Below are positions 11,148 through 30,320 of a stretch of DNA of 46,582 nt, piece by piece (the stretch's first letter is position 1; each line of letters begins with the position of its first letter). Position numbers and translations under genes: made by a program. The DNA is from a virus, in IMG/VR virus record IMGVR_UViG_3300034817_000007, positions 1-46,582 of that record; one strand, 5' to 3'. The notes beneath the pieces were generated by a model. The model was not told the origin of the DNA, did not search any database, and worked only from the letters and a program-made list of their open reading frames with translations.

Positions 11148-11437
11148 CGGGGATCACCTACGTAGCGCGCGAACACGGTGCGGACGCCCGCGTCCATCCG
11201 GGCCACTGCCTCGAACGAGCCGGTCGGGCGGCAGCACGGGTAGACGCCGCTGTTGATGTTCGCGGCCATGCCAGTGCCCGTGTTGCCGGTCGTTTCCAGG
11301 ACGACGCCCCACATGCCCGGCATCTGGCGCAACTCCTCGGCTGCCTCGGCGAACTTGCTGGGGCGGCCGTGGTGGCCGCCTTGCGGTTTTCTGGGCGTCG
11401 GGTTCTGCCAGCGCAGGACGTGCAGCGGCTCAGGCAT
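11144..11437 (-). CDS. Hypothetical protein, 97 aa
   Basis: Contains a basic N-terminus (QNPTPRKPQGGHHGRPSKF), then MPGMWGVVLET and GSFEAVARMD...VFARYVG, a pattern I associate with small actinophage proteins of unknown role. It overlaps the XRE gene by 8 bases. No function assigned. Confidence 0.5.
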   Translation of the reverse strand: MPEPLHVLRWQNPTPRKPQGGHHGRPSKFAEAAEELRQMPGMWGVVLETTGNTGTGMAANINSGVYPCCRPTGSFEAVARMDAGVRTVFARYVGDPR

Positions 11438-11714
11438 CGCGCACCGCCAGGCCGCGCTTGAGCAGGTCGCCCGGCTTCAACCCGAGCGCCTCGGCCAGCA
11501 CGACAGCTTCACCGATCGCGACCCTCCGGCGTCGTCCCGGGGGGCAGCCGTGCCCGGTCTCGATCTTCTCGATGGAGGGGAAAGGGATTCCGGTGCGCTG
11601 GGCCAGCTCGCGCCGGGAGATGCCGAGACGCTTGCGGGCGGCGTGGAGGTTGTCGGCGTACAGGTCGTCGAGCGCGGCGATGCGTTCGGGGCGCTCGTAC
11701 TGGGTGCCACCCAT
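11430..11714 (-). CDS. XRE-family helix-turn-helix protein
   Basis: A 94-residue Cro/CI-like protein: LHAARKRLGISRRELAQRTG, then SIEKIETG and EAVVLAEALGLKPGDLL. Probably a transcriptional regulator. The insert CPPGRRRR between the helices is unusual. The ATG forms TGATG with the upstream stop. Confidence 0.75.
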   Translation of the reverse strand: MGGTQYERPERIAALDDLYADNLHAARKRLGISRRELAQRTGIPFPSIEKIETGHGCPPGRRRRVAIGEAVVLAEALGLKPGDLLKRGLAVRDA

Positions 11715-14949: not shown

Positions 14950-15167
14950 GCAGTCACAGTAGGCTGACTGCGCACATGGCGCACCTCGTCCTTTCGGATG
15001 ATTACCGGTAGGTATTTCGTCGGTACCGTGAGGGCATGCAACGCTACGCAAAGCAGCGATACGCAACGGAACGGGAGCGCCATAGGCGTCGCCCCCTGCG
15101 TCTGCACATGCGGGACCAGAACCGGCCGCGGGACAATCGCCCCGCAAACGGCACTTACCGTGACCGC
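14950..15167. promoter_or_regulatory. Divergent lysogeny control region
   Basis: Lies between the leftward excisionase-like gene and the rightward repressor-like gene. A dyad CAGTCA/TGACTG (14951-14956 and 14965-14970) covers the leftward -10-like TACTGT. TACCGTGA occurs at 15024-15031 and 15156-15163 as rightward -10-like boxes. The palindrome TACCGGTA sits at 15003-15010, and TACGCAA is repeated at 15045 and 15060. These are good candidate operator and promoter sites. Confidence 0.6.
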
Positions 15168-15602
15168 GTGGCAGGCTCCCCACTAACCCCCGAGGTCGCC
15201 CGCGCGAGGTTCTCGGCATGGGTCGAGCGCGCCCTTGAAGGCGCCCGCGCACAAGGACTCACCGACCGGGAAATCCAGCGCATCAGCGGCGTCTCGACCA
15301 GCACCTTCCACCGCTGGCGCCTCGCCGGGATCAAAGGCTTGCCGAAAATGCCCCAGGTCCGCGCTTTCGCCGCCGCGACCGGAGCCCGCGTTGAAGACGC
15401 CATGAAAGCACTCGGCATGACCGACGCGGACCCGGAACCCACCCCCGAGCCGCCGTTGCCCCGCGACGTCGTGACGATCATGCGTCGCCTCTCCGACCCG
15501 AACACCCCGGAGTCTGAGCGCGAGTTCATTCGCATGACATTGCAGATGCTCGCCGAACGCGCCGGCGGCAGGCGGCGTGACAGCGGCCAGGCAGCCGGGT
15601 GA
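15168..15602 (+). CDS. Repressor-like helix-turn-helix protein
   Basis: A 144-residue protein. Residues 10-60 hold an HTH: WVERALEGARAQGLTDREIQ, RISGVSTSTFHRWRL, and QVRAFAAATGARVEDAM. The C-terminal half is a Pro-rich linker and a short helix. Its place, divergent from the excisionase-like operon and joined to the integrase gene, suggests the immunity repressor. The GTG has no ribosome site but has TACCGT 6 bases upstream. An ATG at 15036 with its own TACCGT would add 44 mostly basic residues, so two forms are possible. Confidence 0.65.
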   Translation: MAGSPLTPEVARARFSAWVERALEGARAQGLTDREIQRISGVSTSTFHRWRLAGIKGLPKMPQVRAFAAATGARVEDAMKALGMTDADPEPTPEPPLPRDVVTIMRRLSDPNTPESEREFIRMTLQMLAERAGGRRRDSGQAAG

Positions 15603-16864
15603 TGGCGCGCAGCAGATACCCGGCGGTCAGCAAAGGTGAAGACGGGCTCTGGCATGCCTGGGTGACCGTCGGGACCAAGGGCAACGGGCGCCCCGACCAG
15701 CGGCACGTGAAGCGGGCCACCCGCGCCGAGGTCGAGGACCGCATCGACGAGCTGCTGGAGCAGAAACGCGACGGCGCCGTCGTCAAGGCGGGCCGTCCGG
15801 GCACCGTCGCGCATTGGCTGACCACGTACCTCGACACGGTGCTGCCCAGCACCGGCCGATGCGACCCGGGGACCATCCGGGACTACCGGTCGAAGATCAC
15901 GCACTGGGTGCTGCCGGTCATCGGCAACATCCGCCTCGACCGGCTGCAGGTCGACAACCTCGACGAGGTGTATCTGCGGATGCGTCGTGCCGGCCGGGCC
16001 GACTCGACGGTGCTGAAGGTGCACCGGATCCTGTCTCGTGCGTTCGAGGTGGCGCTGCGCCGGCGGCTGGTGCCGTTCAACGTGGCGAAGCGGCGGGATT
16101 CGCCGACGTTCGTTCCCGCGGATCAGTCGCCGCTGAGCCGGGAGGATGCGGCGGCGGTGCTCGCCGTTGCCGGTAGTGCCCGCTGGTCGGTGGCGCTGGC
16201 GCTCGGGTTGCGTCAGGGTGAGGCGCTCGGGTTGCGCTGGTCGTTCGTCGACCTGGACCGGGGTGAGATCCGGGTGTGGTGGCAGTTGCGGCGCCGGGCG
16301 TTCGATCACGGCTGCGGCGGGACGTGCGGGAAGCGGCGGGGCGGCAATTGCCCGCAGCGGGTGATGCCGCTGCACACCGGCGAGGTGACCGTGCTGGACC
16401 TGTCGAAGCCTGCGGACTCCGATCGGCGGACGGGGCTGGTGCTGAAGCGGCCGAAGGGCAACGGGCGGCGGACGGTGCCGCTGCCGGACGAGCTGGTCGC
16501 CGAGCTGCGCGCCCGCCTGGCCGCGCAGCAGGTCGAGCGGGCGCTGGCCGGGTCGCTGTGGCAGGACCACGGGTTCGTCTTCACCCGGCCGGACGGGCAG
16601 CCGATCGATCCGAAGGTGGACTACGCCGCGTGGCAGTCGATTCTGGCGGCGGCGGGAGTTCCGGCGACGAAGCTGCACAACGCACGGCACACGGCGGGGA
16701 CGATCATGACGGTGCTCGGCGTGCCGATCGAGGTGGTGCAGGAGGTCCTCGGTCATTCGGACGTGCGTACGACTCGGGGGTACGTCCACGTTGCCTCGGA
16801 GATGGCGAAGTCGGCTACGGGGCGTATCGGCCGGGAGTTGCTCCGGCGGGCGGATACACCCTGA
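15602..16864 (+). CDS. int: Tyrosine integrase
   Basis: A 420-residue tyrosine recombinase that should join attP to a tRNA-Thr attB. An N-terminal arm-binding region (1-65) and a SAM-like core-binding domain (about 66-165) precede the catalytic domain with R204 in LRQGEALGLRW, a Lys in the KRPKGNGRR hairpin near 285, H359-x-x-R362, H385 in LGHSD and nucleophile Y394. An inserted Cys-rich loop (CGGTCGKRRGGNC, about 238-250) may bind zinc; such inserts occur in actinomycete integrases. The ATG forms TGATG with the repressor stop; a GTG at 15599 is also possible. attP follows directly. Confidence 0.95.
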   Translation: MARSRYPAVSKGEDGLWHAWVTVGTKGNGRPDQRHVKRATRAEVEDRIDELLEQKRDGAVVKAGRPGTVAHWLTTYLDTVLPSTGRCDPGTIRDYRSKITHWVLPVIGNIRLDRLQVDNLDEVYLRMRRAGRADSTVLKVHRILSRAFEVALRRRLVPFNVAKRRDSPTFVPADQSPLSREDAAAVLAVAGSARWSVALALGLRQGEALGLRWSFVDLDRGEIRVWWQLRRRAFDHGCGGTCGKRRGGNCPQRVMPLHTGEVTVLDLSKPADSDRRTGLVLKRPKGNGRRTVPLPDELVAELRARLAAQQVERALAGSLWQDHGFVFTRPDGQPIDPKVDYAAWQSILAAAGVPATKLHNARHTAGTIMTVLGVPIEVVQEVLGHSDVRTTRGYVHVASEMAKSATGRIGRELLRRADTP

Positions 16865-16897
16865 CGTACACCCTTGATCTCCATGGAGATTGCAGAG

Positions 16898-16941
16898 AAA
16901 GGCCCCGTGACCTTGGCTTTACGCCTGGTCACGGGGCCTTT
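16898..16941 (+). terminator. Integrase transcription terminator
   Basis: Perfect 15-base arms AAAGGCCCCGTGACC and GGTCACGGGGCCTTT with a 14-base loop, starting 34 bases after the integrase stop and ending in a short T-run (CCTTTCT). It lies between the left arm sites and the attP core. Confidence 0.8.
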
Positions 16942-16951
16942 CTGTGTGCCG

Positions 16952-16994
16952 AGCCGCCTGACGGAATCGAACCGTCGACCTACGCATTACGAGT
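16952..16994 (-). other. attP core: 3' fragment of tRNA-Thr(CGT)
   Basis: On the minus strand the 43 bases begin in the anticodon loop (ACTCGTAAT, anticodon CGT), carry a full T-arm (GACGG-TTCGATT-CCGTC) and end with the 3' acceptor strand AGGCGGCT. The bases upstream (GAGAG) cannot pair with the anticodon stem, so the 5' half of a tRNA is absent and the identity stops there. On integration this piece would restore the host tRNA gene. No intact tRNA is present. Confidence 0.85.
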
Positions 16995-17114
16995 CTCTCG
17001 GTCCGTATGCCGCTGTATACCGCTAGCTGCCGTTGCGGCACTTCACGGCACCATCCGGAACGTTACGGCGTACACCCTGAGGCACACCCTGGGCCATGCA
17101 CGGAGAGTGACATG

Positions 17115-17459
17115 TCAGCGGTTCCATCGGGCAAGAAGCCGGGCGATGCGCCGCGCCGCCGCCACCGACTCCTCATCCAAGCCCGACGGGATGGGGTCAC
17201 TGCCGTCGACGATCTCCTGCACCCGATCATTCGACCAGTTCGCATTCCCCGGCCGGCTCGCCTCCGACGGGATCCTCATTGCCCGCCGCGCTTCCATGAG
17301 TGCGACGGTCGGCGACTCGTCGAACGGGGCGGCCGTTTCCGGCTCGGAGCGATACTCATGCCCGGGGAAGGCGACACGACCGATGCCGACGGTCTGCAGG
17401 TAGTCCAGGATGGCCTTCAGCTGCGTTCCGTTGTGCACCTGCATGATCACCGTGTGCAT
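17115..17459 (-). CDS. Hypothetical protein, 114 aa
   Basis: Begins MHTVIMQVHNGTQLKAILDY and continues LQTVGIGRVAFPGHEY; the C-terminal half is helical (ALMEARRAMRIPSE, ESVAAARRIARLLARW). No family recognised. The ATG at 17459 has GGGGAGGGG 4-5 bases upstream, one of the best ribosome sites in this block. It reads toward attP and stops just beyond the right arm. Confidence 0.5.
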   Translation of the reverse strand: MHTVIMQVHNGTQLKAILDYLQTVGIGRVAFPGHEYRSEPETAAPFDESPTVALMEARRAMRIPSEASRPGNANWSNDRVQEIVDGSDPIPSGLDEESVAAARRIARLLARWNR

Positions 17460-17495
17460 GCGATCCCCTCCCCTGAATCTTGAACAGGCCTCCAC

Positions 17496-17510
17496 TTAAC
17501 GCCCCGTTAA
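17496..17510. promoter_or_regulatory. Operator-like palindrome
   Basis: TTAACG-CCC-CGTTAA is a perfect 6+6 dyad in an AT-richer intergenic stretch, upstream of the leftward 17459 gene. A binding site for one of the small regulators is likely; which one cannot be said. Confidence 0.5.
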
Positions 17511-17613
17511 CCTGTATCGCCTCCCCGTAGCGTCCCAGTAAAAATGCATGATGTAGTAAAGCCTTCAACCGAACGTACGACCCCATCTGTGCAGGTCCGC
17601 GCAATGCGGATCA

Positions 17614-17653
17614 CCGTGCGATCGGACGGTGAGACCGCACGGCAATACCGTGC
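17614..17653. promoter_or_regulatory. Control region of the AlpA-like gene
   Basis: Inverted repeat CCGTGCG (17614-17620) / CGCACGG (17636-17642), with ACCGTGC repeated directly at 17613 and 17647. TACCGT at 17646-17651 is a TANNNT -10 candidate 8 bases before the ATG at 17660, so the mRNA may be leaderless. Confidence 0.45.
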
Positions 17654-17659
17654 AGGCTC

Positions 17660-17851
17660 ATGGCAGCGCCGCGCGTGGTCGGGCTCGCCGAGATCGCCCA
17701 GCGGCTCGGCATATCGAAGTCCTACGCGCGCGAACTGTCCCAGCGGCGCGGCTTCCCGCCCGGCACGAAGCTCACGCAAGGCTGGGTCTGGACCACCGCC
17801 GACGTCGAAGCCTGGATCGCCAAGCATCGGCCGCCGAAGGATCCGCACTAG
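17660..17851 (+). CDS. AlpA/excisionase-like DNA-binding protein
   Basis: A 63-residue winged-helix protein: GLAEIAQRLGISKSYARELS, QRRGFPPGTKL, then GWVWTTADVEAWIAKH. It is of the same kind as the 18608-18823 protein. Candidates for its role are regulator of the transfer-like genes or an accessory excisionase. Its stop codon TAG shares CTAG with the stop of the convergent gene. Confidence 0.7.
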   Translation: MAAPRVVGLAEIAQRLGISKSYARELSQRRGFPPGTKLTQGWVWTTADVEAWIAKHRPPKDPH

Positions 17852-18219
17852 AGCCGCACCGGGCGCTGACCAGGATGCTGCAGGCACCACGCGCAGATCT
17901 TGAGGCCATGGATGTCGTACTCGTGCTCCGGCACACCCTCGGCCATCCGCTCGGCGAGCTCCTCCACGCTGGTGCGGAAGATCTCCGCGCGGTGGTAGCT
18001 GCCCTCATACTCCGCACAGAAGCCGGCCGGCCGCTCCCAGCCGGCCGCCGCGTTCTCGGGCATCCACCACACGTGCCAGCCGGGATGGCGGTCTTCGAGG
18101 TCGGCGCACGCCCGCAGAGCACCCTCAGGCCACCCGGTGCGTCCGGCGACCAGGAGCCGGTTGTTCTGGATGCGGGCCCGGTCGGACGGCCACTTTGGGA
18201 CCGGCGGCTGCGGCATCAT
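17848..18219 (-). CDS. Hypothetical protein, 123 aa
   Basis: Begins MMPQPPVPKWPSDRARIQNN; contains Trp/Pro-rich HPGWHVWWMPENAAAGWERP and ends near a CAWC pair (LKICAWCLQHPGQRP). Probably a small zinc-binding protein. It is coupled (ATGA) to the gene upstream. Its stop and that of the AlpA-like gene overlap in CTAG. Confidence 0.5.
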   Translation of the reverse strand: MMPQPPVPKWPSDRARIQNNRLLVAGRTGWPEGALRACADLEDRHPGWHVWWMPENAAAGWERPAGFCAEYEGSYHRAEIFRTSVEELAERMAEGVPEHEYDIHGLKICAWCLQHPGQRPVRL

Positions 18220-18443
18220 GCCCGCCACCTGCCCGTGTCGTCGCGCCAGCCGTGGGCGAGCCGCTCGGCGGGGAACGGGCCGAACTCCTCGCCCGGCGGC
18301 CAGACGTCCGACAGCGTGACCATGAATCCGTCGTCGACCCGGCGGGCAACGCGCGCGTAGTGCTGGAAGGCGAGGATGTACACGTCTTGGTCGTAGGGCG
18401 GGAGCACCGTGACGGGCTCGCCCACTTTCGGTAGATCGGCCAT
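18216..18443 (-). CDS. Hypothetical protein, 75 aa
   Basis: Starts MADLPKVGEPVTVLPPYDQD; a beta-rich small domain with RVDDGFMVTLSDVWPPGEEF, reminiscent of SH3-like folds, but no family can be named. AAGGAGG precedes the ATG at a good distance, which fixes the start. Confidence 0.5.
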   Translation of the reverse strand: MADLPKVGEPVTVLPPYDQDVYILAFQHYARVARRVDDGFMVTLSDVWPPGEEFGPFPAERLAHGWRDDTGRWRA

Positions 18444-18607
18444 CAGGCCGCCTCCTTCGCTGCGTCGAAGGGGGAGGCCCGGGCCGGGCGGTCGCAGGCA
18501 CCGACCCGGGCCTCCTTCACGCGGCACCTTACGCGCTGACATGTCGCAGTGACAGGTGTTCATGCCTATGGCGTACGGTCAGGTAATCGGCACATAGCGT
18601 GCGAGAC
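18444..18607. promoter_or_regulatory. Intergenic control region
   Basis: No coding seen. TGACATGTC (18537-18545) and TGACA are repeated near the middle; a related TGACATGTCA palindrome occurs at 17108-17117. TAGCGT at 18595-18600 lies 7 bases before the ATG at 18608, a leaderless-type -10 box identical to that of the 19084 gene. Confidence 0.45.
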
Positions 18608-18823
18608 ATGGCAGACCGGCGGCAGCTACCCCGACTTATGGGGCAGCAGGAGATCCGCGAACGCCTGGGCTACTCCCGCCAGCACACCGGCGTCATCATC
18701 GGCGCGAAGGGCTTCCCCGACCCGGCGTACGTGCTGGCCATGGGCCGCATCTGGCTCGCCGAGGACGTCGAGGCGTGGATTCGCGAGCACCGGCCCGAGT
18801 TCGCCGGAGACACGGAGAGCTAG
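18608..18823 (+). CDS. AlpA-like DNA-binding protein
   Basis: A 71-residue winged-helix protein: LMGQQEIRERLGYSRQHTGV, KGFPDPAYVLAMGRIWLAED, VEAWIREHRPEF. It looks like a paralogue of the 17660 protein. The start at 18608 is chosen because TAGCGT sits exactly 7 bases upstream; an earlier in-frame start at 18599 would overlap that box. Its stop shares CTAG with the convergent ribbon-helix-helix gene. Confidence 0.7.
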   Translation: MADRRQLPRLMGQQEIRERLGYSRQHTGVIIGAKGFPDPAYVLAMGRIWLAEDVEAWIREHRPEFAGDTES

Positions 18824-19059
18824 GCGTCGCCCTCGCGTCGCGTCGAACGCTCAGGTAGCTCCGCGCCGGGCTTGCCGAGGTACCACCGCATGAAGTCGCG
18901 CAGGATCCCGGAGCGGCCGTCCGGCTCGCTCTCGGTCGCCTGACCGAACTCATCCCAAAGGTCAGGCTCGACCCGGATGGTTCGGCGGTCGGTACCTCTC
19001 GACGTCACGCCCATCAGGGTGTCATGACCGACCGAGGGATGGTGTGTTGTAGGTGTCAT
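18820..19059 (-). CDS. Ribbon-helix-helix regulator
   Basis: A 79-residue protein. Residues 24-62 (RTIRVEPDLWDEFGQATESE, then SGILRDFMRWYLGK) fit a ribbon-helix-helix fold with the beta strand RTIRVE. It probably binds the GTCATGAC palindromes that overlap its own start and that of the divergent gene. The chosen ATG lies inside such a palindrome, with TAACAT 7 bases upstream. Starts at 19068 or further in at MGVTSRG are possible. Confidence 0.7.
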   Translation of the reverse strand: MTPTTHHPSVGHDTLMGVTSRGTDRRTIRVEPDLWDEFGQATESEPDGRSGILRDFMRWYLGKPGAELPERSTRREGDA

Positions 19060-19091
19060 GACACCCATGTTAGCGTAGGTGTCATGACACC
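19018..19091. promoter_or_regulatory. Mirror-image leaderless promoters with start-codon operators
   Basis: GGTGTCATGACACC occurs at 19052-19065 and 19078-19091, and a partial copy GGTGTCATGACC at 19018-19029. The centre of the first holds the leftward ATG (19059) and the centre of the second holds the rightward ATG (19084). Between them are back-to-back -10 boxes: TAACAT leftward (19072-19067) and TAGCGT rightward (19071-19076). Each is exactly 7 bases from its ATG. Binding would block both promoters at the transcription start. Confidence 0.75.
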
Positions 19092-19272
19092 CGGCAACAC
19101 GATCCTCTTGCTTGGTGGCTTCCTCGTCGAGGGCGTCGTCTTCTACCTCGTCATGCGCTCCGTCCGTCGCCTCACGAAACCGCCGCCGCGCGAGCCGCAG
19201 CAGCCGATACGGATGATCGCCACCGTCCGCCGTGAGCTGCCCGCCCCACCCCGGAAGGAGATCGCCAGATGA
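19084..19272 (+). CDS. Single-pass membrane protein, 62 aa
   Basis: MTPGNTILLLGGFLVEGVVF followed by YLVMRSVRRLTK gives one transmembrane helix and a basic Pro-rich cytoplasmic tail. It is the first gene of the rightward transfer-like operon and overlaps the DUF2637 gene by 4 bases. The ATG sits inside an operator palindrome, pointing to repression by the divergent RHH protein. Spd-like roles are possible but not shown. Confidence 0.55.
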   Translation: MTPGNTILLLGGFLVEGVVFYLVMRSVRRLTKPPPREPQQPIRMIATVRRELPAPPRKEIAR

Positions 19273-20000
19273 GGCTGCCAGGGATTCGCTGGGGTGTGCG
19301 CGGCGTGCTCATGCTGGGCGTCGTCGCGTCCACGGTCGCGAACGTCCTGCACGCCGAGCCGAACGGGATCAGCCGCACCATCGCCGCGTGGCCGCCGCTC
19401 GCGCTGCTGCTGACCATCGAGCTGATCTCCCGCATCCCGGTCCACCGGCTGTGGCTCGCCGCGACCCGGCTGTGTGCCGCGGCAGCGATCGCCGGGATCG
19501 CCGCTTGGGTCTCCTACTGGCACATGGCCGGCGTCGCCGCCCGCTACGGCGAGACCGGCTCGAGCCCGTACCTGCTGCCCCTGTCCGTGGACGGGCTGAT
19601 CGTTGTCGCGTCGATCTGCCTCGTCGAGCTGGGCGGCCGGATCCGCACGGCCGAGAGCGCAATGCCGGAACAGCCGCTGCGGGTCGCGGTTCGGGTTGGG
19701 CCGATATACGACCACCGTCGGCCGATCGGTCCGATGCCCGCCCCGGTCAAGCCGCGATCTGGCACAGCGGGCGGCGATGATTCCGCAGCTCAGCGGCAGC
19801 GTGCGGACGAGCGGTCTGCACAGCAGAAGGAAGCCGTGGTGCGTGCGGTAAAGACGACCGACCCTGGCGCGTCGCTGCGGTGGATCTCCGCCGCGACGCT
19901 CGTGCCGGTGTCGACCGTCCGGAACATCTTGAGCACGGCGGCGGAACAGCCGCCGCCGGAAGTCAACGGCAAGGTGCCGGACCTGGAAGGAGTCAAGTAA
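19269..20000 (+). CDS. DUF2637 (SpdB-like) membrane protein
   Basis: A 243-residue protein. Four hydrophobic helices within residues 8-120 (RGVLMLGVVASTVANVLHAE, WPPLALLLTIELISRI, AAAAIAGIAAWVSYWHMAGV, PLSVDGLIVVASICLVEL) match the DUF2637 pattern. The tail is charged and ends in an HTH-like segment (SLRWISAATLVPVSTVRNIL). DUF2637 proteins lie beside FtsK-type transfer genes in AICEs and Streptomyces plasmids, where SpdB proteins help spread DNA through the mycelium. Here too it is followed by an FtsK-type gene. Confidence 0.8.
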   Translation: MRLPGIRWGVRGVLMLGVVASTVANVLHAEPNGISRTIAAWPPLALLLTIELISRIPVHRLWLAATRLCAAAAIAGIAAWVSYWHMAGVAARYGETGSSPYLLPLSVDGLIVVASICLVELGGRIRTAESAMPEQPLRVAVRVGPIYDHRRPIGPMPAPVKPRSGTAGGDDSAAQRQRADERSAQQKEAVVRAVKTTDPGASLRWISAATLVPVSTVRNILSTAAEQPPPEVNGKVPDLEGVK

Positions 20001-20137
20001 TGACCAAGCAGGAGCAGGCCGCGCGAGCCCAAGCGGAACGCGCCGCGGCACAGCAGCGCGAGTTCGAGCGGCTCCAACGCGAGGGCAACTCGCCGCTGAT
20101 GAGCCTGGAAATCATGAAGGGCCGGGGACGTAGCTGA
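20000..20137 (+). CDS. Small charged helical protein, 45 aa
   Basis: Starts MTKQEQAARAQAERAAAQQR and is one long Gln/Arg/Glu helix. TAATG couples it to the DUF2637 gene. Similar tiny genes are common between spd and tra genes of actinomycete elements; no function known. Confidence 0.5.
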   Translation: MTKQEQAARAQAERAAAQQREFERLQREGNSPLMSLEIMKGRGRS

Positions 20138-20145
20138 CTGGCCAG

Positions 20146-20183
20146 GCGCGGCCGAGCCCCTCTTCCCCGAGGCTCGGCCGCGC
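20146..20183 (+). terminator. Hairpin between the SpdB-like and translocase genes
   Basis: Perfect 13-base arms GCGCGGCCGAGCC and GGCTCGGCCGCGC with a 12-base loop, 30 bases before the translocase ATG. There is no T-run. It could attenuate translocase expression or mask its ribosome site (AAGGAGG at about 20200). Confidence 0.5.
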
Positions 20184-20212
20184 ATCCGCGTCTAACCAGG
20201 AAGGAGGCGGGC

Positions 20213-21823
20213 ATGGCGGACCTCTTCCGCGTCTGGCTCCCCGTCGCCGGCGCCGTGGCAGCCGTAGCGGCCGACGAGGGGCACATGACCGGCGCCGGAA
20301 TCGCCGCCGTGGCGCTCTGGCGCGCCCGCCGATACCTGCACGAGCGGCGATTCAGGCGCGAGTACATCGAGCCGACGCTGGCCGCGATGTCCCCCGCGCT
20401 CGGCCTGCACGAATCCCACGTCAGGCTGCACGTCGACCCGTCGCTAGGGAACTTGACGCCCAGGCTTGCGAAGCCGCTGTCGCCCACGGAGAAGTGGATC
20501 CGGCTGCAGTACGGCGAGCACGTCGAGCCGGTGTTGCGGTGGTTGCCCGAGCGGGCGCAGCGTGGCGCGTGGAAGGTCCAGGCGTGGGCACGGCCCGTGA
20601 CGGCGAAGGCCGCACTGCTGCGCCGGCCGCGGGAGGACGCCGGCCCGCGGATCGAGCTGGTGGCGCGGACCCCGTATCTGACGAGCGAGCAGCGTCAGCT
20701 TGTGTCAGCGATCGTCAAGGCGAAGATCCCCGCCGGTGACCTGCTGGACTCCTGGCACCAGGTCGGGCCGCGGGTCCGGGTCGTGTGGACCGTACGGAAG
20801 CGGCCACCGTCGGCCGTCGGCCTCGACCACGTCCTGACGCAACTGCCCAACCTGAAGGAGTGGGAGTTCTACATCGGCCAGGCCGCCGGGGACGTCCCCG
20901 TGGTGGTGTCGCTGCGCGACGACTCGCCGCACATCTCGGAGAGCGCCGGATCGGGCGCGGGCAAGAGCGTGCTCGCCATGCTCATCGCCGTGCAGGTGCT
21001 GAACCGCGGCGGCCGGGTGCTGCTGCTGGATCGGAAGGGCTCGCACCGGTGGGCGCTGGGCATGCCGGGCGTCGACTACTGCACCAAGGCACCCCAGATG
21101 CACGACGCGCTGCTGCAGGTCTCGGCCATGGCCAACGAGCGCAACGACCTGGCCCTGCACGAGGAGGAGGACTGGGATCCAGGCCCGCGCACGCTGGTGA
21201 TCGCCGAGGAGTTGAACGCGACGATCGCGCAGCTCGCGAACTACTGGGCCGACGTCCGGGAGAAGGGCGAGCCGAAGAAATCCCCGGCGATTGCGGCGCT
21301 GGCCGATCTGCTTTTCATGGGCCGCTCGGCGAAGGTCAACGTTCTGGCCATTGCGCAAATGCTCACCGCCCGGGCGATCGGTGGCCCGGAGGCCCGGGAG
21401 AATTTCGGCATTCGCTGCCTCGCTCGCTATACGGCGAACAACTGGAAAATGCTCGTGCCCGAGGCTGCGATGCCCCGCGCGTCGCGGACTCTGGGCCGCT
21501 GGCAGGTCGTGATCGGCGGAACAGCCATAGAGGTACAAGTCGCCTACCTCACCACAAAACAGGCCCGCGCCCTCGCGAACCCGGGCGCGGGGCTTGATAG
21601 CGCATTGAGCAGGGAAGTTACCGGTGACGGTAACAAGGTGACCTTGCGGGAGGCCGCAGACGCCAGGCTGATCCCCTGGTCGTACGAGGCGGCGAAGCAG
21701 CGGCTGTATCGGCGCGTCGGGAATCTGCCGGAACCGCGCGGCACGAAAGGCAAGTCGTTCCTTTACGAGGAAGCGGATTTGGTGCGCTGGGTGGAGAGCG
21801 TGAAGTCGGAGTCGGTGGGATGA
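20213..21823 (+). CDS. FtsK/SpoIIIE-type DNA translocase (Tra-like)
   Basis: A 536-residue ATPase. A weak hydrophobic N-terminus (10-38) may touch the membrane. Walker A SGAGKS is at 247-252 and Walker B TLVIAEE at 327-333; an FtsK-like LLDRKG follows the first strand. The C-terminus (about 480-536) is a MerR/AlpA-like winged helix (LREAADARLIPWSYEAAKQR ... GKSFLYEEADLVRWVES) in place of the FtsK gamma domain. In AICEs such proteins move double-stranded DNA between cells. In a phage the role is unknown: conjugal spread, or moving phage DNA within the host. The ATG has AAGGAGG. Confidence 0.85.
   Translation: MADLFRVWLPVAGAVAAVAADEGHMTGAGIAAVALWRARRYLHERRFRREYIEPTLAAMSPALGLHESHVRLHVDPSLGNLTPRLAKPLSPTEKWIRLQYGEHVEPVLRWLPERAQRGAWKVQAWARPVTAKAALLRRPREDAGPRIELVARTPYLTSEQRQLVSAIVKAKIPAGDLLDSWHQVGPRVRVVWTVRKRPPSAVGLDHVLTQLPNLKEWEFYIGQAAGDVPVVVSLRDDSPHISESAGSGAGKSVLAMLIAVQVLNRGGRVLLLDRKGSHRWALGMPGVDYCTKAPQMHDALLQVSAMANERNDLALHEEEDWDPGPRTLVIAEELNATIAQLANYWADVREKGEPKKSPAIAALADLLFMGRSAKVNVLAIAQMLTARAIGGPEARENFGIRCLARYTANNWKMLVPEAAMPRASRTLGRWQVVIGGTAIEVQVAYLTTKQARALANPGAGLDSALSREVTGDGNKVTLREAADARLIPWSYEAAKQRLYRRVGNLPEPRGTKGKSFLYEEADLVRWVESVKSESVG
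21617..21646. promoter_or_regulatory. Candidate translocase recognition (clt-like) site
   Basis: Inside the translocase gene, GTTACCGGTGACGGTAAC (21617-21634) is a dyad with 7-base arms, followed by CAAGGTGACCTTG (21634-21646), itself a palindrome. Together they hold GGTGAC, GGTAAC and GGTGAC spaced 6-8 bases apart. Streptomyces tra genes are known to have their cis-acting transfer locus near the 3' end of tra, so this is a plausible recognition site for the winged helix encoded next. Confidence 0.4.
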
Positions 21824-22056
21824 CGACCGCATTCCTGCTCGGCTTCATGGCCGGCGGCTTCGTGTTCTGGAATGTCTCGGTGGCGGTGGAACGGTTCCGG
21901 CGTGCCCGGCTGGACTTCAGCATGACTCGCCGCGGACTGCGCACGCTGGTCAAGATGATGTGGGCCCGCGGCGTCCAGGCGGCGAAGGGCTGCCTGCTCG
22001 CCGCGGGCGTCATCGCCGCCGTGGTGCTGGTCTGGCGAGGCCAGCACTTCCGGTAG
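21820..22056 (+). CDS. Small membrane protein (Spd-like position), 78 aa
   Basis: Two hydrophobic helices (MTTAFLLGFMAGGFVFWNVS and CLLAAGVIAAVVLVW) with a basic loop between. It overlaps the translocase gene by 4 bases (ATGA). Small membrane proteins downstream of tra are typical of actinomycete conjugative elements and often assist spread; here that is inference from position. Confidence 0.55.
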   Translation: MTTAFLLGFMAGGFVFWNVSVAVERFRRARLDFSMTRRGLRTLVKMMWARGVQAAKGCLLAAGVIAAVVLVWRGQHFR

Positions 22057-22161
22057 GCGCGATCCGATCATCCATGCCGGGCCGCCGATCATCGGATTGA
22101 CCGGGTTGCATGGATACCTCACCCTGTGGTCGCCCCATCACTCACCGATCAGGGACCGACC
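22057..22161. promoter_or_regulatory. Intergenic region before the anchored protein gene
   Basis: Holds the dyad ATCCGAT (22062-22068) / ATCGGAT (22091-22097) and a -35-like TTGACC at 22097-22102, with no convincing -10 at standard spacing. The gene downstream may have its own promoter, as lysogenic accessory genes often do. Confidence 0.35.
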
Positions 22162-22581
22162 ATGGACATCACCACGCCCGACCCCGCACCGACGAAGCGC
22201 CGCACCTGGATGTGGATCGCGCTGGCCGGCGCCCTGGTCGCCGTGCTCGGCTTCGGCGCCTACCTCGCCCTCGGCCGGAGCTCCAGCCCGTCGCTCGCCG
22301 ACGCCGAGAAGTCCTGCAACGACGGCCGCACCGATACGACCGTCGGCGACGGCGGGAAGACGCTGATCATCAACGCGTCCGGCGACCCGATCAAGACCAT
22401 CGTCGACACCCAGACCGAGGCCTGCGTGCTCGACTACCTCAAGACGCCGGCGGCCGTGCGGGCGCACATCGAGTCGACCCGGGCGCTCGACGGGCGGCAG
22501 ACCGACGCCTGGGACGGCTTCACCGCGGCATGGACGTTCCACCCGGACAACGGCTTGGACATCACCATCCAGGCGAAGTAG
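22162..22581 (+). CDS. Membrane-anchored extracellular protein, 139 aa
   Basis: A short basic cytoplasmic start (TKRRTW), one transmembrane helix (about 16-37, MWIALAGALVAVLGFGAYLA), then an exported domain with two cysteines (ADAEKSC; TEACVLDYL) that could form a disulphide. AGGGA lies before the ATG. It is set apart by its own intergenic region and ends at a strong terminator, like a lysogenic-conversion or superinfection-exclusion gene; no family recognised. Confidence 0.6.
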   Translation: MDITTPDPAPTKRRTWMWIALAGALVAVLGFGAYLALGRSSSPSLADAEKSCNDGRTDTTVGDGGKTLIINASGDPIKTIVDTQTEACVLDYLKTPAAVRAHIESTRALDGRQTDAWDGFTAAWTFHPDNGLDITIQAK

Positions 22582-22596
22582 TCCGGACACGCAAAA

Positions 22597-22634
22597 GCGC
22601 GCCGCCCCTCCCGGAGGAAGGGGCGGCGCTTTGT
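22597..22634. terminator. Bidirectional terminator between convergent operons
   Basis: An 11-base stem GCGCCGCCCCT / AGGGGCGGCGC (22599-22609 and 22619-22629) with a 9-base loop, flanked by AAAA on the left and TTT on the right. It lies between the rightward anchored-protein gene and the leftward late operon, so it can end both. Confidence 0.8.
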
Positions 22635-22668
22635 GTCGGTGCCCGGCGCTAAGCTCGCCGGATCGGTG

Positions 22669-23022
22669 CTAGGCCTGCTTGGTGCCGACCGCGCTGACCG
22701 GTGCGACGACCTGGGTGCGCACGAACGCCGCGGCGACGGCGCCGACGAACGACATGATCACGGCCTGGTTCTCGGCGCTGACGTGCAGCCCGAAGCCGAT
22801 GGCGAGTGCGAGCAGGGCCTGGGCGACGCCGAGGAGGGCGGCGACCTGCCCGTCCCGCTGAACCCACACGGCGACGATCATCGCGGCGATGGCGGTGGCG
22901 GCGGCGTTGAGGACGGCCTGCTGCTCGCCGGTGAGGTGGAAGACGAACGCGCTGGCGAGCCGGGCCGCGGTGGCTACGAGCGTCAGCCAGAGCGCCGGGT
23001 CGCGCGAGAACTTGAACGACAT
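22669..23022 (-). CDS. Holin-like membrane protein, 117 aa
   Basis: Three to four hydrophobic helices: WLTLVATAARLASAFVF, AVLNAAATAIAAMIVAVWV, VAALLGVAQALLALAIGFGL, AVIMSFVGAVAAAFVRTQV. GGAGGTAAGCC precedes the ATG. The place downstream of the lysin and other membrane genes fits a holin or holin partner. It is the last gene of the late operon. Confidence 0.65.
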   Translation of the reverse strand: MSFKFSRDPALWLTLVATAARLASAFVFHLTGEQQAVLNAAATAIAAMIVAVWVQRDGQVAALLGVAQALLALAIGFGLHVSAENQAVIMSFVGAVAAAFVRTQVVAPVSAVGTKQA

Positions 23023-23033
23023 GGCTTACCTCC

Positions 23034-23051
23034 GAACGTGTGTTCTAAGGT
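23034..23051 (+). promoter_or_regulatory. LexA-type SOS box and -10 element
   Basis: GAACGTGTGTTC (23034-23045) fits the actinobacterial/Gram-positive LexA core GAAC-N4-GTTC exactly and is preceded by C as in the fuller consensus. TAAGGT (23046-23051), a TANNNT -10 box, follows at once, 6 bases before the GTG start at 23058. LexA bound here would cover the promoter. Confidence 0.65.
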
Positions 23052-23057
23052 GCGAGG

Positions 23058-23312
23058 GTGGAGCGGGTCTTCGAGACGCCGATGCGCGGTGCGGTACGGC
23101 AGTGGTGGCGCAACGGTGACCCGTGGGATCAGCGCGCTACGCAGGTGTTCGTCGGTGAGCGCGACGGATGCTGGTATGCGCGCTGGCACGGCAGGCCGGG
23201 GGTTCTGCGCCCGGGCGCTGCGGTGTACGCCGGGCTGCACGCCGAGTGGTACGCGCGGGCCACAGCCAGGCGGTGGATGCGGACCGTCGGAGGCGATTGG
23301 GTCGAGGCCTAG
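23058..23312 (+). CDS. SOS-box-controlled small protein, 84 aa
   Basis: A Trp/Arg-rich protein (eight Trp in 84 residues), beginning MERVFETPMRGAVRQWWRNG and including GCWYARWHGRP and EWYARATARRWM. It is the only rightward gene within the leftward late block and appears to use a leaderless, LexA-controlled promoter. Its TAG shares CTAG with the stop of the convergent late gene. No family is recognised. By position and control it could be an antirepressor or another induction factor, but that is hypothesis. Confidence 0.6.
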   Translation: MERVFETPMRGAVRQWWRNGDPWDQRATQVFVGERDGCWYARWHGRPGVLRPGAAVYAGLHAEWYARATARRWMRTVGGDWVEA

Positions 23313-23665
23313 CGCCCGTTCGCGGCGGCCGCGGGCGGGTCTATCGGGCCGATCAGCTCCCGCAGCCGCTCGATCGTCATGCCCGGCCGCCACGTGTGCC
23401 GGCGCATCGTCTGATGCTCGGCGATCCAGTGGTCGGCCTCGCGGGTCACCGCGTCGAGCTGGCGGCGCAGCTCCCGGACCTGGGTTCGCAGCTGCTCGAC
23501 TTCCTCGCGGGCGTCGATCGCGTCCTGCCGTAGCTCCTTGACCCAGCCGAGGTTCGCTGCCTGCTGGTTGACGTCGTTGGCCCGCGACGAGGACCGGTAG
23601 ACCAGGTACGCGGCGACCAGGCCGGGCACGCCTGCGATCAGCGCAACGACGATGGTTTTGTCCAC
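23309..23665 (-). CDS. Membrane-anchored coiled-coil protein (lysis block), 118 aa
   Basis: One N-terminal transmembrane helix (TIVVALIAGVPGLVAAYLVY), then a long coiled coil (about 40-78, LRQDAIDAREEVEQLRTQVR) and a basic tail with RPGMTIERLREL. This topology is typical of proteins in actinophage lysis cassettes that act as holin partners or spanin-like proteins. The GTG start overlaps the upstream gene by 28 bases. Confidence 0.6.
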   Translation of the reverse strand: MDKTIVVALIAGVPGLVAAYLVYRSSSRANDVNQQAANLGWVKELRQDAIDAREEVEQLRTQVRELRRQLDAVTREADHWIAEHQTMRRHTWRPGMTIERLRELIGPIDPPAAAANGR

Positions 23666-24051
23666 GTCGTCCCCTTCTCGTCTCCCGGCTCCGGCCAGCT
23701 CGCGATCACGCTGACCGCGTAGGCGAGGCCGAGCCAGATCGCGGCTGATACGTACCCGCGGTCGACGCCGCCGAACAGCCACGCGCCGAGGGTGACGACG
23801 CCCCAGCAGATCTTCAGGCAGATCGCCGCGGCGTACCCGATGCCGTCGCGCCGGCAGAACGCCTGCCACAGGCACGTCACGCCGACGCCGCCCCAGGCCA
23901 GCGCCCACACCCACAGCGGCGCGATCTGCGCCAGCCACACGAACATCGGGACACGCCGGGTCACTGCATCCGGCGCCGACAGGCTCACCGCGTACACGAC
24001 GTCGAGCGCGCCGAAGAACAGCAGCATCCGGCCCCGCTTGCCGACATGCAT
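23638..24051 (-). CDS. Four-helix membrane protein, putative holin, 137 aa
   Basis: Hydrophobic helices at about residues 8-25, 37-62, 70-92 and 100-118 (FVWLAQIAPLWVWALAWGGV, AAICLKICWGVVTLGAWLF). It lies directly after the lysin gene, the usual place for a holin. The C-terminus is charged. Confidence 0.6.
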   Translation of the reverse strand: MHVGKRGRMLLFFGALDVVYAVSLSAPDAVTRRVPMFVWLAQIAPLWVWALAWGGVGVTCLWQAFCRRDGIGYAAAICLKICWGVVTLGAWLFGGVDRGYVSAAIWLGLAYAVSVIASWPEPGDEKGTTWTKPSSLR

Positions 24052-26139: not shown

Positions 26140-27690
26140 CTAGGAGGCGAACACGCCGTCGTTGAAACCGCGCCCGGCGACGTCGAAGACGAAGGCCGTG
26201 GCCGCGTTGTCGATACCGTCGGCGACGAACGCGCCGTCGTTGAAGCCCTTGCCCGCGACGTCGAAGGTGAGCGCGTTGGCGGCCTGGGTGGGCTGCGGCG
26301 GCTCGCAGGTGATCGTGAGCCGTGAGCTGATGCCCAGGCTGGTTATCTCCCGCTGCACGCGTTCCACGATGAAGTCGCCGCTGACGCCGATGATGTCCTC
26401 GCGGACGGTGATCCGGTCGGAGATCGTGCGGGCGGCGAATTCCTGCAGGTAGGTCGTGTTGATCGCGCCGTCGATGGTGAAGGTGATCACCGGCCGGGCC
26501 GTGGCGTAGGTGGAGACGATCCGGTTCGCGATAGCTTGCGCGTCGTACGGTCCTGCCCACGGGAGCGGCTGGTCCCACGTCTTGCGGCCCTTCGAGAGCA
26601 CCGACCCGGCATCCTCTGCGGTGACCTTCACCGTGCGGGCCACCGTGAGCGGGTACGCGCGGACCTGCAGCGTCGCCACCGTCGCGTCCGTGCCGCCCGC
26701 GGTTACGGAGATGGTCAGCGACTGGCCGGAGTCACGGTCGAGGGTGACCGTGATGCTGCCGCCGAGCAGCGTGTAGTCGGTCTCGTCGGGGGTGAACGCG
26801 CTGATGAAGGGGTCGTTGGACTGGGCGAAGATCGTGGTGGTGGTGCCGGCCGGGACGACGAACGGGGAGTCCGTCGACCACACTGCCGCGACCGCCCCCG
26901 GCGCGCGAACGTCGATCTGGAAGGTCGCGGAGTTCACGATGTTGCTGCGGCCGTGGTCGTAGCTGATCGAGTCGCGGAGCATCTTGAAGTCCCCGCCCGG
27001 GCCGGTGCCCTCGGGGTAGATGTGCGTGTAGGTGGCCTGACTGGCCGTAGAGCGGCTGTTGAACATCCGGTGGTGGCGGTCCTCGAAGACGCACACACCC
27101 TGGCTGACGTAGGCGATCGCCGGTGGGCCCTCGCTGTCGGCCAGCTCCTGGATTGCGTCGGCCGCGGTCTTGCCCTCGGCCCACCAGTACTGGACCGCAG
27201 TGGCGCCCGGGTCGATGGAGCGTTTGCCGGCGGGCCAGCCGACCTCGTCGAGAATCGCGTTGATCAGGTCGCCGGTCCGATAGCCCTGGTAAACCTGGGT
27301 GGAGATGGTCTGATTGGCGACGAGGCCCCAGGCGTCGATCAGCTTGCCGGACAGCGACCAGTCGCCCGGGTTGTAGGTGAACTTGTCGAGGGAACCGTCG
27401 AACAGGTTCGTCGTCGACCCGGAAACGGTGAGATCCAGGCGGCCCGGCACCCCCGGCACGACCTTGCCGTACAGCGGTGAGGCGGTCCGGTCCGGCGCGT
27501 ACACGCGGGCCGAATCGTCGATCTTGAAATCGAGGGTTCCTGTGGGCAGGTCCGCGGCGGCGCGGGAGGTATCCCGCCCGACCGCGATCGTGATGTCGGC
27601 GTCGGCCGAGACCGAGGCGTCCTCGTACGGGTTGGCGAAGGTGCCGGCCCGCGACCAGTCCAGCCCCAGACGGTATCCACGGACGGTCAT
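26140..27690 (-). CDS. Minor tail (baseplate/hub-like) protein, 516 aa
   Basis: Follows the tape measure gene, the usual place of the distal tail and hub proteins. Residues 1-110 describe a coordinate-type beta domain (MTVRGYRLGLDWSRAG ... DFKIDDSARVYAPDR); the middle is beta-rich. The C-terminus has two copies of FDVAGxGFNDGxF separated by about 20 residues, a small duplicated end module. It probably links the tail tube to fibre proteins. Confidence 0.7.
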   Translation of the reverse strand: MTVRGYRLGLDWSRAGTFANPYEDASVSADADITIAVGRDTSRAAADLPTGTLDFKIDDSARVYAPDRTASPLYGKVVPGVPGRLDLTVSGSTTNLFDGSLDKFTYNPGDWSLSGKLIDAWGLVANQTISTQVYQGYRTGDLINAILDEVGWPAGKRSIDPGATAVQYWWAEGKTAADAIQELADSEGPPAIAYVSQGVCVFEDRHHRMFNSRSTASQATYTHIYPEGTGPGGDFKMLRDSISYDHGRSNIVNSATFQIDVRAPGAVAAVWSTDSPFVVPAGTTTTIFAQSNDPFISAFTPDETDYTLLGGSITVTLDRDSGQSLTISVTAGGTDATVATLQVRAYPLTVARTVKVTAEDAGSVLSKGRKTWDQPLPWAGPYDAQAIANRIVSTYATARPVITFTIDGAINTTYLQEFAARTISDRITVREDIIGVSGDFIVERVQREITSLGISSRLTITCEPPQPTQAANALTFDVAGKGFNDGAFVADGIDNAATAFVFDVAGRGFNDGVFAS

Positions 27691-30320
27691 CGCTTGATCT
27701 TTCGTTCGCTGACCGCCGTGTTGTAGGCCTCGACGACCAGGTCCACGGCCTGCCGCTTCGACGTGATCACCGCGTTGTGCAGGTGGATATGGACGTCACC
27801 CCCGGCCCCTGGGGTCACGGTCTCCGCGCCGTGCTCACCGAATGAGTACGTCCGGCCGCTCGCGCCGATGCCCACGACCGGCTCGCGGATGACACCGCCG
27901 TTCGCCATCGCGATGTGGTCGTGCGGGTTGCCGCCCGCGAAGTTGTGCTGGTTGTAGACGAGCGGGCTGTACGCGTGGCGGCGGCCGTTCTGGATGTTCA
28001 GGTCCTGCCAGGGAGAGATCAGCTCCTTGGTGCGCGACATGTACCGCTGGTTCCACACCTCGGCCAGCTTGCGGTTCCAGTGGAAGTCGACCGCCCGGCC
28101 CAGCGCGTGATAGGACACGTTCCCGGTCAGCGTGCGGGCCCCGGGCCGATCCTGCGACAGCACCTCGATGCCGGGCACGATCTGCCGGGCCGCGCGGACG
28201 ATCCAGTCCGACGTGCGGCCACCCGCCGGGACCGGCAGCACGACCTTCGCCTCGACCTCGGACCTCGGCGGGATACGCGTGCCGGCGGCGTTCGTGGTGA
28301 CCTTGAACGGCCGCTGCTCGACCGGGTAGTAGCCGCCCGCCGCGAAGCCGTTGCGGCCCGCGTTCAGGTCCTCGAGCATCTCCCGGTGCTTACCGGTCTG
28401 CTGGGCGTTGACGATGAACTCGCCACCCGCCAGGCCAAAGCCGTCCCCGCCCGGGCCGTGGCCGCGCAGGTTGTCGACGCCCGACGGCGGGCCCGGAAGC
28501 CTGCCGGAGAACGGCGCGTATTGGCCACCCTGCGCGTAGCCGCCGTACCGCTTCGCCGGGCCCTTCTCGCCCTTCAGCTTCGCAATCTCGGAGGCAATCG
28601 GGATGCCGTCGGCCAGCGACCGCTGGAAGACGTACAGGTCCCTCAGGGCGGAAACGATCGAGTCGACGCCGGCCACGACGAGTTTGGTGGTCTTGCCCTT
28701 CGGGATCGACCCGTACGTCGTGACCAGCTTGTCCGTCTCGGTCTTGCTCAGGTGAGACTTGGCCGCCTCTTCCTTCAGCGCGGCGATGCGGGCGTTGTGC
28801 TTCTTCGTCGCCTCAGCGATGCCGATACCCGACTGAACGTCGGCGAAGTACATGTCCTTCGACGCCGACGCGACCGCCTCGAGCGCGTCCCGGTTGGACC
28901 GGCCCGCCGCCGAGTGGATGTTGAGGGTGCGGCCGTTCTTCTGGATCGAACCGGACAGGGCGTCCCAGCTGGCCTCGTACGCCTCGTTCGCGTCGATGGC
29001 GGCGATCTGCGCCCCGTACAGGTTCTGAGTCGCCTTACGCAGCCCGTCGACGATCGCCGCGGCCCGGCCACCGGCCGGGGCCAGGGCGGCGAGCGAGTCG
29101 TTGTAGGCCTTCTGCGCCTGGGTGGCGACGTCCTGGACGGCCTTGACGTCATCCTGGGTTGCCACGAACAGGCCGTTGGCCCGGGCCGCCGCCGCGGCAG
29201 CGTCGCTGTTCTTGGCCAGCGCGAGGACCTGCGCGGCAATCGCCGTGGCCGCGCCGGCCGCGCTTTCGGTGACGTTCTTGTTGATGCCGACCAGGCCGGC
29301 AGCGGCGAACTCGAGCTCCTTGAACTTGCCCGGCAGGTAGGCGATGATCCCGTACAGCTCGGTCAGGCCGCGGACCAGATAGGCGGTCGCCTCGATCAGC
29401 ACGCCGGCGACCTTGGCGATGTTCGTCAGCGCACTGGCGGCATCATCCGAGTCGCCCGAGATGATCGAGAATGCCTTGCCGACGGACTCGCCGATGATCG
29501 AGAACGACTTGCCGAGCGCGTCGATCACCGGCTTGCCCTTGGTGACCAGCGACTCGAAGCCCTTCAGGATCCCGTCCACGCCGTCGAGGGCACCGTTCAC
29601 CAGCGGCTGCACGAAACCGGACGAGTCCGAGAAGATGTGCTTGATCCGGCCTTCCGCCGAGTCGAACCGGGCCTCGATCTGCCCGATCGCGGCCAGGACC
29701 GGCTCGACGAACGGCTGGGCATCGTCCTTCAGGCTGCTGAGCAGCTTTTGCCCGATCTCCGCGCCGGCCGCCTGGACCCGCGGGTCGTCCTTGACCAGCA
29801 GCAGGCCGCCGATCACGCCGCCGACGCCCGCGCCGCCGATCACCGCGGCCGAGATGCCTGCGGCGACCACAGGGGCCGCGGCCACCGCGGCGATCACCAG
29901 CTGAGGCGAGACCGGCGCCGACTCCAGCAGAGACCCGAGCTTCGACGAGAACCGCGTGGCGAATCCCGCCGCGGCCTCGCCGCCTCCGTCGCCGCCGACA
30001 TCGCCGAGCTTCTTCTTGAAGCGGCTGAGCTCCCCGAGTGCCCGCTCGGTCTTGATCTTCACCTCGACGGTGGCCGAGTCCCGGGACAGCCGCCGCAGCT
30101 TCTCCTCGGTGGCCTCGATCGCGGCGAAGGCCTTCTTCGGGTCGGCCTTGATGTCGATCGGATCCAGGTCGAGCCGCTTCAGCGCCCGGTTGAGCTGCCC
30201 GCCGACCTGCCTACCGGCCTTGCCGCCCGGGTCCTGCTTGGCGAGGTCGGTCTTCAGCTTGTCGTCGAAACCCGTGACATCAGGCTCGACCGGAACGTAG
30301 GCGCGACGCAGGACGGTCAC
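27687..30320 (-). CDS. Tape measure protein with peptidase-like domain
   Basis: An 877-residue protein that should set tail length. Residues 1-115 are charged helices, then hydrophobic Ala/Gly-rich stretches near 130-175 and 260-320, as expected for a tape measure. Near the C-terminus H738-x6-D745 in SYHALGRAVDFHW and H800-D-H802 in NPHDHIAM resemble the zinc site of M15/LAS peptidases, suggesting local wall digestion during DNA entry. It ends with a His-rich beta segment (GGDVHIHLHNAV). Confidence 0.85.
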   Translation of the reverse strand: MTVLRRAYVPVEPDVTGFDDKLKTDLAKQDPGGKAGRQVGGQLNRALKRLDLDPIDIKADPKKAFAAIEATEEKLRRLSRDSATVEVKIKTERALGELSRFKKKLGDVGGDGGGEAAAGFATRFSSKLGSLLESAPVSPQLVIAAVAAAPVVAAGISAAVIGGAGVGGVIGGLLLVKDDPRVQAAGAEIGQKLLSSLKDDAQPFVEPVLAAIGQIEARFDSAEGRIKHIFSDSSGFVQPLVNGALDGVDGILKGFESLVTKGKPVIDALGKSFSIIGESVGKAFSIISGDSDDAASALTNIAKVAGVLIEATAYLVRGLTELYGIIAYLPGKFKELEFAAAGLVGINKNVTESAAGAATAIAAQVLALAKNSDAAAAAARANGLFVATQDDVKAVQDVATQAQKAYNDSLAALAPAGGRAAAIVDGLRKATQNLYGAQIAAIDANEAYEASWDALSGSIQKNGRTLNIHSAAGRSNRDALEAVASASKDMYFADVQSGIGIAEATKKHNARIAALKEEAAKSHLSKTETDKLVTTYGSIPKGKTTKLVVAGVDSIVSALRDLYVFQRSLADGIPIASEIAKLKGEKGPAKRYGGYAQGGQYAPFSGRLPGPPSGVDNLRGHGPGGDGFGLAGGEFIVNAQQTGKHREMLEDLNAGRNGFAAGGYYPVEQRPFKVTTNAAGTRIPPRSEVEAKVVLPVPAGGRTSDWIVRAARQIVPGIEVLSQDRPGARTLTGNVSYHALGRAVDFHWNRKLAEVWNQRYMSRTKELISPWQDLNIQNGRRHAYSPLVYNQHNFAGGNPHDHIAMANGGVIREPVVGIGASGRTYSFGEHGAETVTPGAGGDVHIHLHNAVITSKRQAVDLVVEAYNTAVSERKIKR

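Follow-up and report, generated by a model that had tools for sequence, protein, structure and literature searches.

What does an operon that encodes an FtsK-type DNA motor and a DUF2637 membrane protein do in the genome of a tailed phage? The question is raised by positions 19084-22581 (+) of the IMG/VR virus record IMGVR_UViG_3300034817_000007, which was analysed over its whole length of 46,582 bp (hereafter the window). The sequence-only reading of this DNA had recognised there the make-up of an actinomycete integrative conjugative element (AICE) inside a full phage genome. The best-supported description of the operon is a membrane-anchored pump for double-stranded DNA (dsDNA), belonging to the conjugative branch of such motors and placed under its own repressor. 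Judged from its sequence, this pump has about an even chance of moving the phage DNA between hyphae, a second route of spread that would not involve virions. A broader proposal is possible rather than probable: a family of integrating actinomycete phages could spread in two ways, as virions and as naked circular dsDNA through its own FtsK-branch conjugation machine, with a motor that is exchanged with integrative elements and shares descent with conjugative plasmids.

The ATPase of the operon (20213-21823, +; 536 amino acids, aa) consists of a hydrophobic N-terminal part, a motor of the FtsK/TcpA branch and a C-terminal winged helix. Its Pfam match, DUF87/HerA (E 5.4e-5), is marginally over the cut-off. 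A family profile of 10 rows retrieves from the PDB TcpA of the Clostridium perfringens plasmid pCW3 first (E 3.4e-8), then TrwB, HerA and FtsK. In the same way, the AlphaFold2 model (pLDDT 82, 43 alignment rows) retrieves with Foldseek TcpA (E 5e-18) and FtsK (E 1e-13), then EccC and HerA, so that TcpA is the best PDB match in both sequence and fold. TraB of pIJ101 aligns with the ATPase in hhalign over 165 columns (probability 75, E 2.5e-5), an alignment that takes in the stretch as far as the Q-x-x-T motif. The Walker A motif is 244-SAGSGAGKS-252, with GKS invariant in 43/43 sequences. Profile and predicted fold thus support placing the ATPase in the FtsK/TraB/TcpA branch, where its closest neighbours are TcpA, a conjugative coupling protein, and FtsK. 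Identity as a terminase or packaging motor, the outcome that the sequence-only reading had set against its own proposal, is rejected: the fold is nearest to TcpA/FtsK and the comparison with the TerL of the window gives an hhalign probability of 0.1. The FtsK/SpoIIIE-type translocase with a winged helix that this reading had proposed therefore stands by profile and fold, except that PF01580 is not matched and that the C-terminal domain (about 475-533 in the model) is excisionase/HTH_17-like, not a recognisable FtsK gamma domain. This domain is predicted to bind DNA and is conserved in 18 sequences from phage, element and plasmid relatives.

The same operon, with conserved neighbours and an ATPase 82-91% identical, was found in three IMG/VR contigs from other metagenomes (L003-L005), and the ATPase is under purifying selection (dN/dS 0.13-0.24). 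The operon is thus no chance arrangement.

The ATPase also matches the PADLOC profile mad8 weakly (E 7.7e-8, 30 bits). Together with the position at the prophage end and a putative promoter of its own, this match would fit an operon acting as a lysogenic-conversion or defence cassette, for example in superinfection exclusion at the membrane. Such a role is improbable, as the mad8 similarity reflects the shared ATPase core only, the scanned genes (a subset of the open reading frames of the window) gave no match to any further Mad component, and the relatives found sit in transfer and mobility loci.

The gene before the motor (19269-20000, +) encodes the predicted DUF2637 protein (PF10935, E 2.9e-10; score 40.7 bits, cut-off 22.8). 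The protein was correctly described as a membrane protein, with four transmembrane (TM) helices, to which must be added a linker, a C-terminal helix-turn-helix (HTH) domain and the tail VNGKVPDLEGVK. The model (pLDDT 76, low pTM) contains four long helices, a disordered linker and the HTH; in a PDB fold search no hit to the whole of it was significant, and short stretches of it matched HTH regulators with high probability. DUF2637 evolves faster than the ATPase (dN/dS 0.55-0.71). In L003 its TM part is swapped, with the HTH and the tail VNGKVPDLEGV retained, and in some other relatives its place is taken by a different protein with an N-terminal HTH-like part and C-terminal TM segments. What recurs 5' of the motor is thus an HTH domain joined to a membrane anchor. 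The predicted architecture of the DUF2637-HTH protein resembles that of SpdB2 of pSVH1, a membrane protein that binds DNA and also interacts with TraB (PMC4170104).

The operon lies between attP and the lysis genes, and its adjacent frames overlap or almost touch over most of its length. It starts with a 62-aa protein with one TM segment (19084-19272, +) that has homologues in L003-L005. The ATG of a tiny gene (20000-20137, +) overlaps the DUF2637 stop; its 46-aa product is charged and probably helical, and other small charged open reading frames occupy this position in L004 and L005. A 78-aa two-TM protein (21820-22056, +), translationally coupled to the ATPase, has homologues in L003-L005 (78-86%) and in L007 (49%). 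The last gene (22162-22581, +) encodes a small membrane-anchored protein with one TM segment, a homologue of which (52%) is found 3' of the ATPase in L028. Beyond it, where the operon and the holin gene converge, a hairpin of 14 pairs (22599-22629) was scored as terminator-like for the minus strand. A perfect 13-bp inverted repeat at 20146-20183, between the 46-aa gene and the ATPase, may damp expression of the latter.

Divergent from the operon lies a gene for a ribbon-helix-helix (RHH, Arc-like) repressor (18820-19014, -; weak match to phrog_6506, E 0.011). The RHH regulator reported earlier is thus present, although its coding sequence probably starts at 19014 and not at 19068, the limit of the open frame. 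Its counterparts are 78% identical in L028 and 45% in L025 and L007. The intergenic region is a putative divergent promoter/operator (19018-19091) with perfect palindromes GGTGTCATGACACC at 19052 and 19078 and an incomplete copy at 19018. In L028 the same pair occupies the same place with a spacing of 26 bp, and L025 has a 13-base version with a spacing of 24 bp; both stand beside an RHH gene, in spite of the divergence of the coding parts. Since the RHH gene and the paired palindromes recur in this way, the operon seems to be under its own RHH repressor, at the place that Kor repressors occupy in conjugative plasmids. L003-L005 have neither the RHH gene nor the palindromes. We infer that TTGTAG (19047-19052) and TAGCGT (19071-19076) are the -35 and -10 elements of the operon promoter, where a sigma-70 scan made no call. 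The operon mRNA may be leaderless, because the first ATG (19084) sits within the second palindrome. No named RNA element reached the gathering threshold.

A full-length ATPase was found in 11 other IMG/VR contigs examined. Its phage context is real, because nine of these also encode TerL. Among 11 Micromonosporaceae genomes, 15 loci carry the ATPase, and only two of them have TerL strongly matched on the same contig at a distance of up to 30 kb, some contigs being short. Two elements among these relatives, L050 and L048, share with the phage the ATPase (65-71% identical), DUF2637, an integrase and an AAA_25 primase/helicase, but on their contigs TerL is absent to a distance of about 30 kb. L050, a small Micromonospora element whose primase-helicase is of Toprim/AAA_25 type, thus has an AICE-like set of genes, whereas L048 adds a phage capsid gene. 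No exact borders of either were found with confidence from flanking repeats. The plasmid members of the family are the pRL2-11/'Tra' proteins of Streptomyces and Pseudonocardia plasmids. Those of the Streptomyces linear plasmids (pFRL6 Tra, pRL2-11) share about 42% identity with the phage ATPase, in an alignment that extends past the motor, and the C-terminal winged helix is conserved in them; their context, unlike the window, has no phage particle genes. In pFRL6, a DUF2637 gene precedes 'Tra' and a gene annotated 'conjugal transfer protein' follows it.

In the maximum-likelihood tree of the ATPase, phage and element copies form mixed clades, and the well-supported (starred) branches force at least three changes of label, in a tree that leaves the direction of movement between phages and elements unsettled. 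Such interleaving would also fit non-functional cargo derived from a conjugative element. Cargo is the least probable explanation and already disfavoured, as the ATPase and the two-TM gene after it are under purifying selection (dN/dS 0.13-0.34), the active-site motifs are intact in 43/43 sequences and the operator is recurrent. The module is thus real, of transfer type and exchangeable between phages and integrative elements.

The family of the motor, the membrane segments, the HTH domains, the recurrence of the palindromes, purifying selection and movement of the module are directly supported; we infer repression, the hexamer, the choice of substrate, the site of action and transfer itself. 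Repression of the operon by the RHH protein would first be relieved. The ATPase would then assemble as a hexamer at the membrane, its C-terminal winged helix selecting the substrate DNA. The membrane-bound HTH protein (DUF2637) would tether DNA and motor at a contact site or cross-wall, the part attributed to SpdB2 alongside TraB. Excised circular phage dsDNA could then be pumped from the hypha of the lysogen to a receiving cell or compartment, where the integrase would insert it in tRNA-Thr(CGT).

Transfer between hyphae is the most likely use of the pump. Spread or maintenance across septa comes next, with a modest chance: the pump would act within one mycelium, carrying prophage DNA or replicated phage DNA through septa, vegetative or of sporulation, and thereby letting compartments and spores keep or regain the phage. 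This would suit the FtsK/SpoIIIE-type fold and the mycelial Micromonosporaceae hosts, and spd genes work in spread within the mycelium and can also make plasmids more stable (PMC4170104). However, the closest solved relative of the ATPase is a conjugation protein, and an integrated prophage is already passed on with the chromosome. There is a small chance that the ATPase serves replication or recombination of phage DNA in the lytic cycle, the membrane genes being incidental. Replication or recombination has been put forward as the role of an FtsK-like protein in the Streptomyces phage Geonosis (PMC11536984), and Dagobah has a short family member for which no TM or DUF2637 neighbour was found. 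The operon nevertheless lies on the attP side, apart from the primase, ERF and exonuclease genes, which form a block on the opposite strand, and has its own repressor. Several TM proteins are in it or abut it, the N-terminus of the motor is hydrophobic, and the ATPase family occurs in conjugative plasmids.

Transfer between hyphae is supported by the plasmid relatives (such as pFRL6 'Tra'), the elements L050 and L048, and the similarity to TcpA and TraB, but several observations weigh against it. The ATPase does not match PF01580 (FtsK_SpoIIIE), a profile that a distant relative on pPSED03 passes with 25.3 bits against a cut-off of 24, and its Walker B position (E332-E333) reads EE, not DE, in 43/43 sequences, which is a mark of the family. 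Short repeats in a clt-like tandem array were looked for at 16800-24000 and not found, although some AICEs, such as pSAM2, have no described clt either. The DUF2637 protein had been called SpdB-like. No homology with SpdB was found (probability 0.4 for its profile against pIJ101 SpdB, which itself has no Pfam match). Some phage copies of the ATPase have no DUF2637 neighbour but another HTH-TM protein. Conversely, eight contigs with a DUF2637 relative lack a window-type ATPase, and no FtsK-type motor was found adjoining the DUF2637 gene of two known phages, VWB and Gilgamesh. The co-occurrence that the sequence-only reading expected is therefore seen in L003-L005 but not in these phages; the pair is not obligatory, since DUF2637 occurs in phages without a window-type ATPase, and DUF2637 is no proof of transfer.

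DUF2637 proteins without an FtsK-type motor are spread across actinophages (L011-L018, VWB gp24, Gilgamesh gp79), which gives the family a phage role of its own. In the phage contig L016 (9938-15091), DUF2637 is followed by a P-loop protein of 678 aa whose C-terminal domain is MarR-like; unrelated in sequence to the ATPase of the window, it is possibly a second type of motor at the same place.

Comparison with known systems delimits what the phage carries. AICEs are defined by an integrase, a RepSA, RepAM or Prim-Pol protein and a PF01580 Tra protein (Ghinet et al., PMC3218068). The window has the integrase, with an attP in tRNA-Thr, and an ATPase of FtsK-type fold outside PF01580. None of RepSA, RepAM (DUF3631) or Prim-Pol was recognised among the scanned genes; the replication genes found are a phage-type primase/helicase, ERF and an exonuclease. 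Furthermore, AICEs have no virion, whereas the window encodes complete head, connector, tail and holin functions. The proposed make-up of an AICE is thus not upheld. Likenesses are nevertheless evident, as AICEs (pSAM2, pMEA300) and pIJ101 also have an FtsK-branch motor with a C-terminal winged helix (TraB) adjoined by small membrane genes, a repressor of their own and a tyrosine integrase. However, their winged helix is MarR-like and their repressor GntR, against an HTH_17-like domain and an RHH repressor in the phage. On the conjugative plasmids of Clostridium, TcpA has a relaxase and a secretion apparatus as partners, neither of which was recognised in the phage.

The nearest precedent for a phage with a transfer module is pZL12 (NC_013420), a Streptomyces plasmid-phage with a required tra gene, as far as it is cited in PMC3583192. 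By that account, a conjugative function is able to coexist with phage genes on one Streptomyces molecule. In pZL12, as putatively in the phage, one molecule unites phage genes with a conjugation function, and its FtsK/SpoIIIE-annotated gene gp071 and membrane protein gp073 are comparable with the operon. pZL12 is, however, a 90 kb circular replicon with ParAB, whereas the phage of the window inserts into tRNA-Thr(CGT) and has a DUF2637 gene. Identity of the ATPase with the FtsK-like protein of pZL12 was not detectable (hhalign probability 1.5). New in comparison is a family of integrating phages whose motor differs from that of pZL12, is conserved and can be exchanged.

If transfer were confirmed, phages of the ATPase-bearing family would not depend on particles or lysis for their spread in soil mycelium and could move host DNA by conjugation. 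The usual boundary between phages and conjugative elements would be broken for an integrating tailed phage, pZL12 being the one published case found so far. Even without transfer, a membrane DNA-pump cassette with relatives in conjugative plasmids shuttles between phages and integrative elements, and its operon, repressor, putative operator and att site are defined for a direct test.

By its gene content, the record (69% G+C, no end repeats) is a complete tailed temperate phage, with terminase, portal, capsid, tail, lysis and integration genes all in the window, as had been claimed. They include TerL (44498-46183), the portal (42884-44254), a head maturation protease (inside the frame 42084-43868), the major head protein (40609-42087), a long tail gene that we read as a tape measure candidate (27687-30320) and the holin (22669-23022), together with head-tail connectors, a tail terminator and a weakly matched major tail protein. 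The main replication gene is a primase/helicase with a Zn ribbon and AAA_25 (4081-5667), besides the ERF recombinase and the exonuclease. An assembly chimera is unlikely, the operon being found again in independent contigs with TerL.

The other genes of the earlier description were likewise found in place. The tyrosine integrase (15599-16864, +; PF00589 E 4.9e-24, phrog_1 5.7e-54) adjoins the attP core (16946-16994), 49 bp identical to the 3' half of a tRNA-Thr(CGT) of a Micromonospora genome; L003 keeps both. Because of this match, the record is the excised/circular or virion form of the phage and Micromonosporaceae are the most likely host family. An integrated copy or host DNA is rejected, attP being internal to the record. 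Beyond attP lie an AlpA/HTH_17 excisionase-like regulator (17660-17851, +; PF12728 1.4e-7, phrog_66 1.9e-9), kept in L003-L005, and a second small HTH_17-like regulator (18599-18823, +; phrog_66 8.7e-5), kept in L003-L005, L025 and L028.

Some further features of the relatives and of the particle genes were noted. The capsid gene of L048, an integrase element of Micromonospora parastrephiae, lies at 10283-11674 (-; PF05065 3.4e-42), and L048 is possibly a capsid-carrying satellite or hybrid element; plasmid pWTY27 also carries a capsid gene (PMC3583192). Streptomyces loci of the ATPase family (L059-L070) often have two or three tandem paralogues. In Micromonospora elements, iteron-like arrays with a period of 75-105 bp between the ATPase and the next genes (L053:9817-10208, L042:11142-11437, L045:10632-11194) are candidate origins or transfer sites. 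The gene directly 5' of TerL in the window (46099-46506) matches phrog_226, labelled 'minor tail protein', and VWB gp32 (L090:13886-14365), with the same label, likewise directly precedes TerL. L053 has a phrog_226-like gene at 15088-15537, and in L053 and L042 the similar gene comes after an HNH-like gene. The phrog_226-type gene before TerL may be the small terminase. Genes for a nucleotide-sugar epimerase (37108-37998) and a glycosyltransferase (39229-40017) lie amid the head genes, and glycosylation of particle proteins is possible. Finally, the tape-measure-like protein has 877 aa in the window against about 1,100 aa in the closest relatives L003-L005, which suggests a shorter tail.

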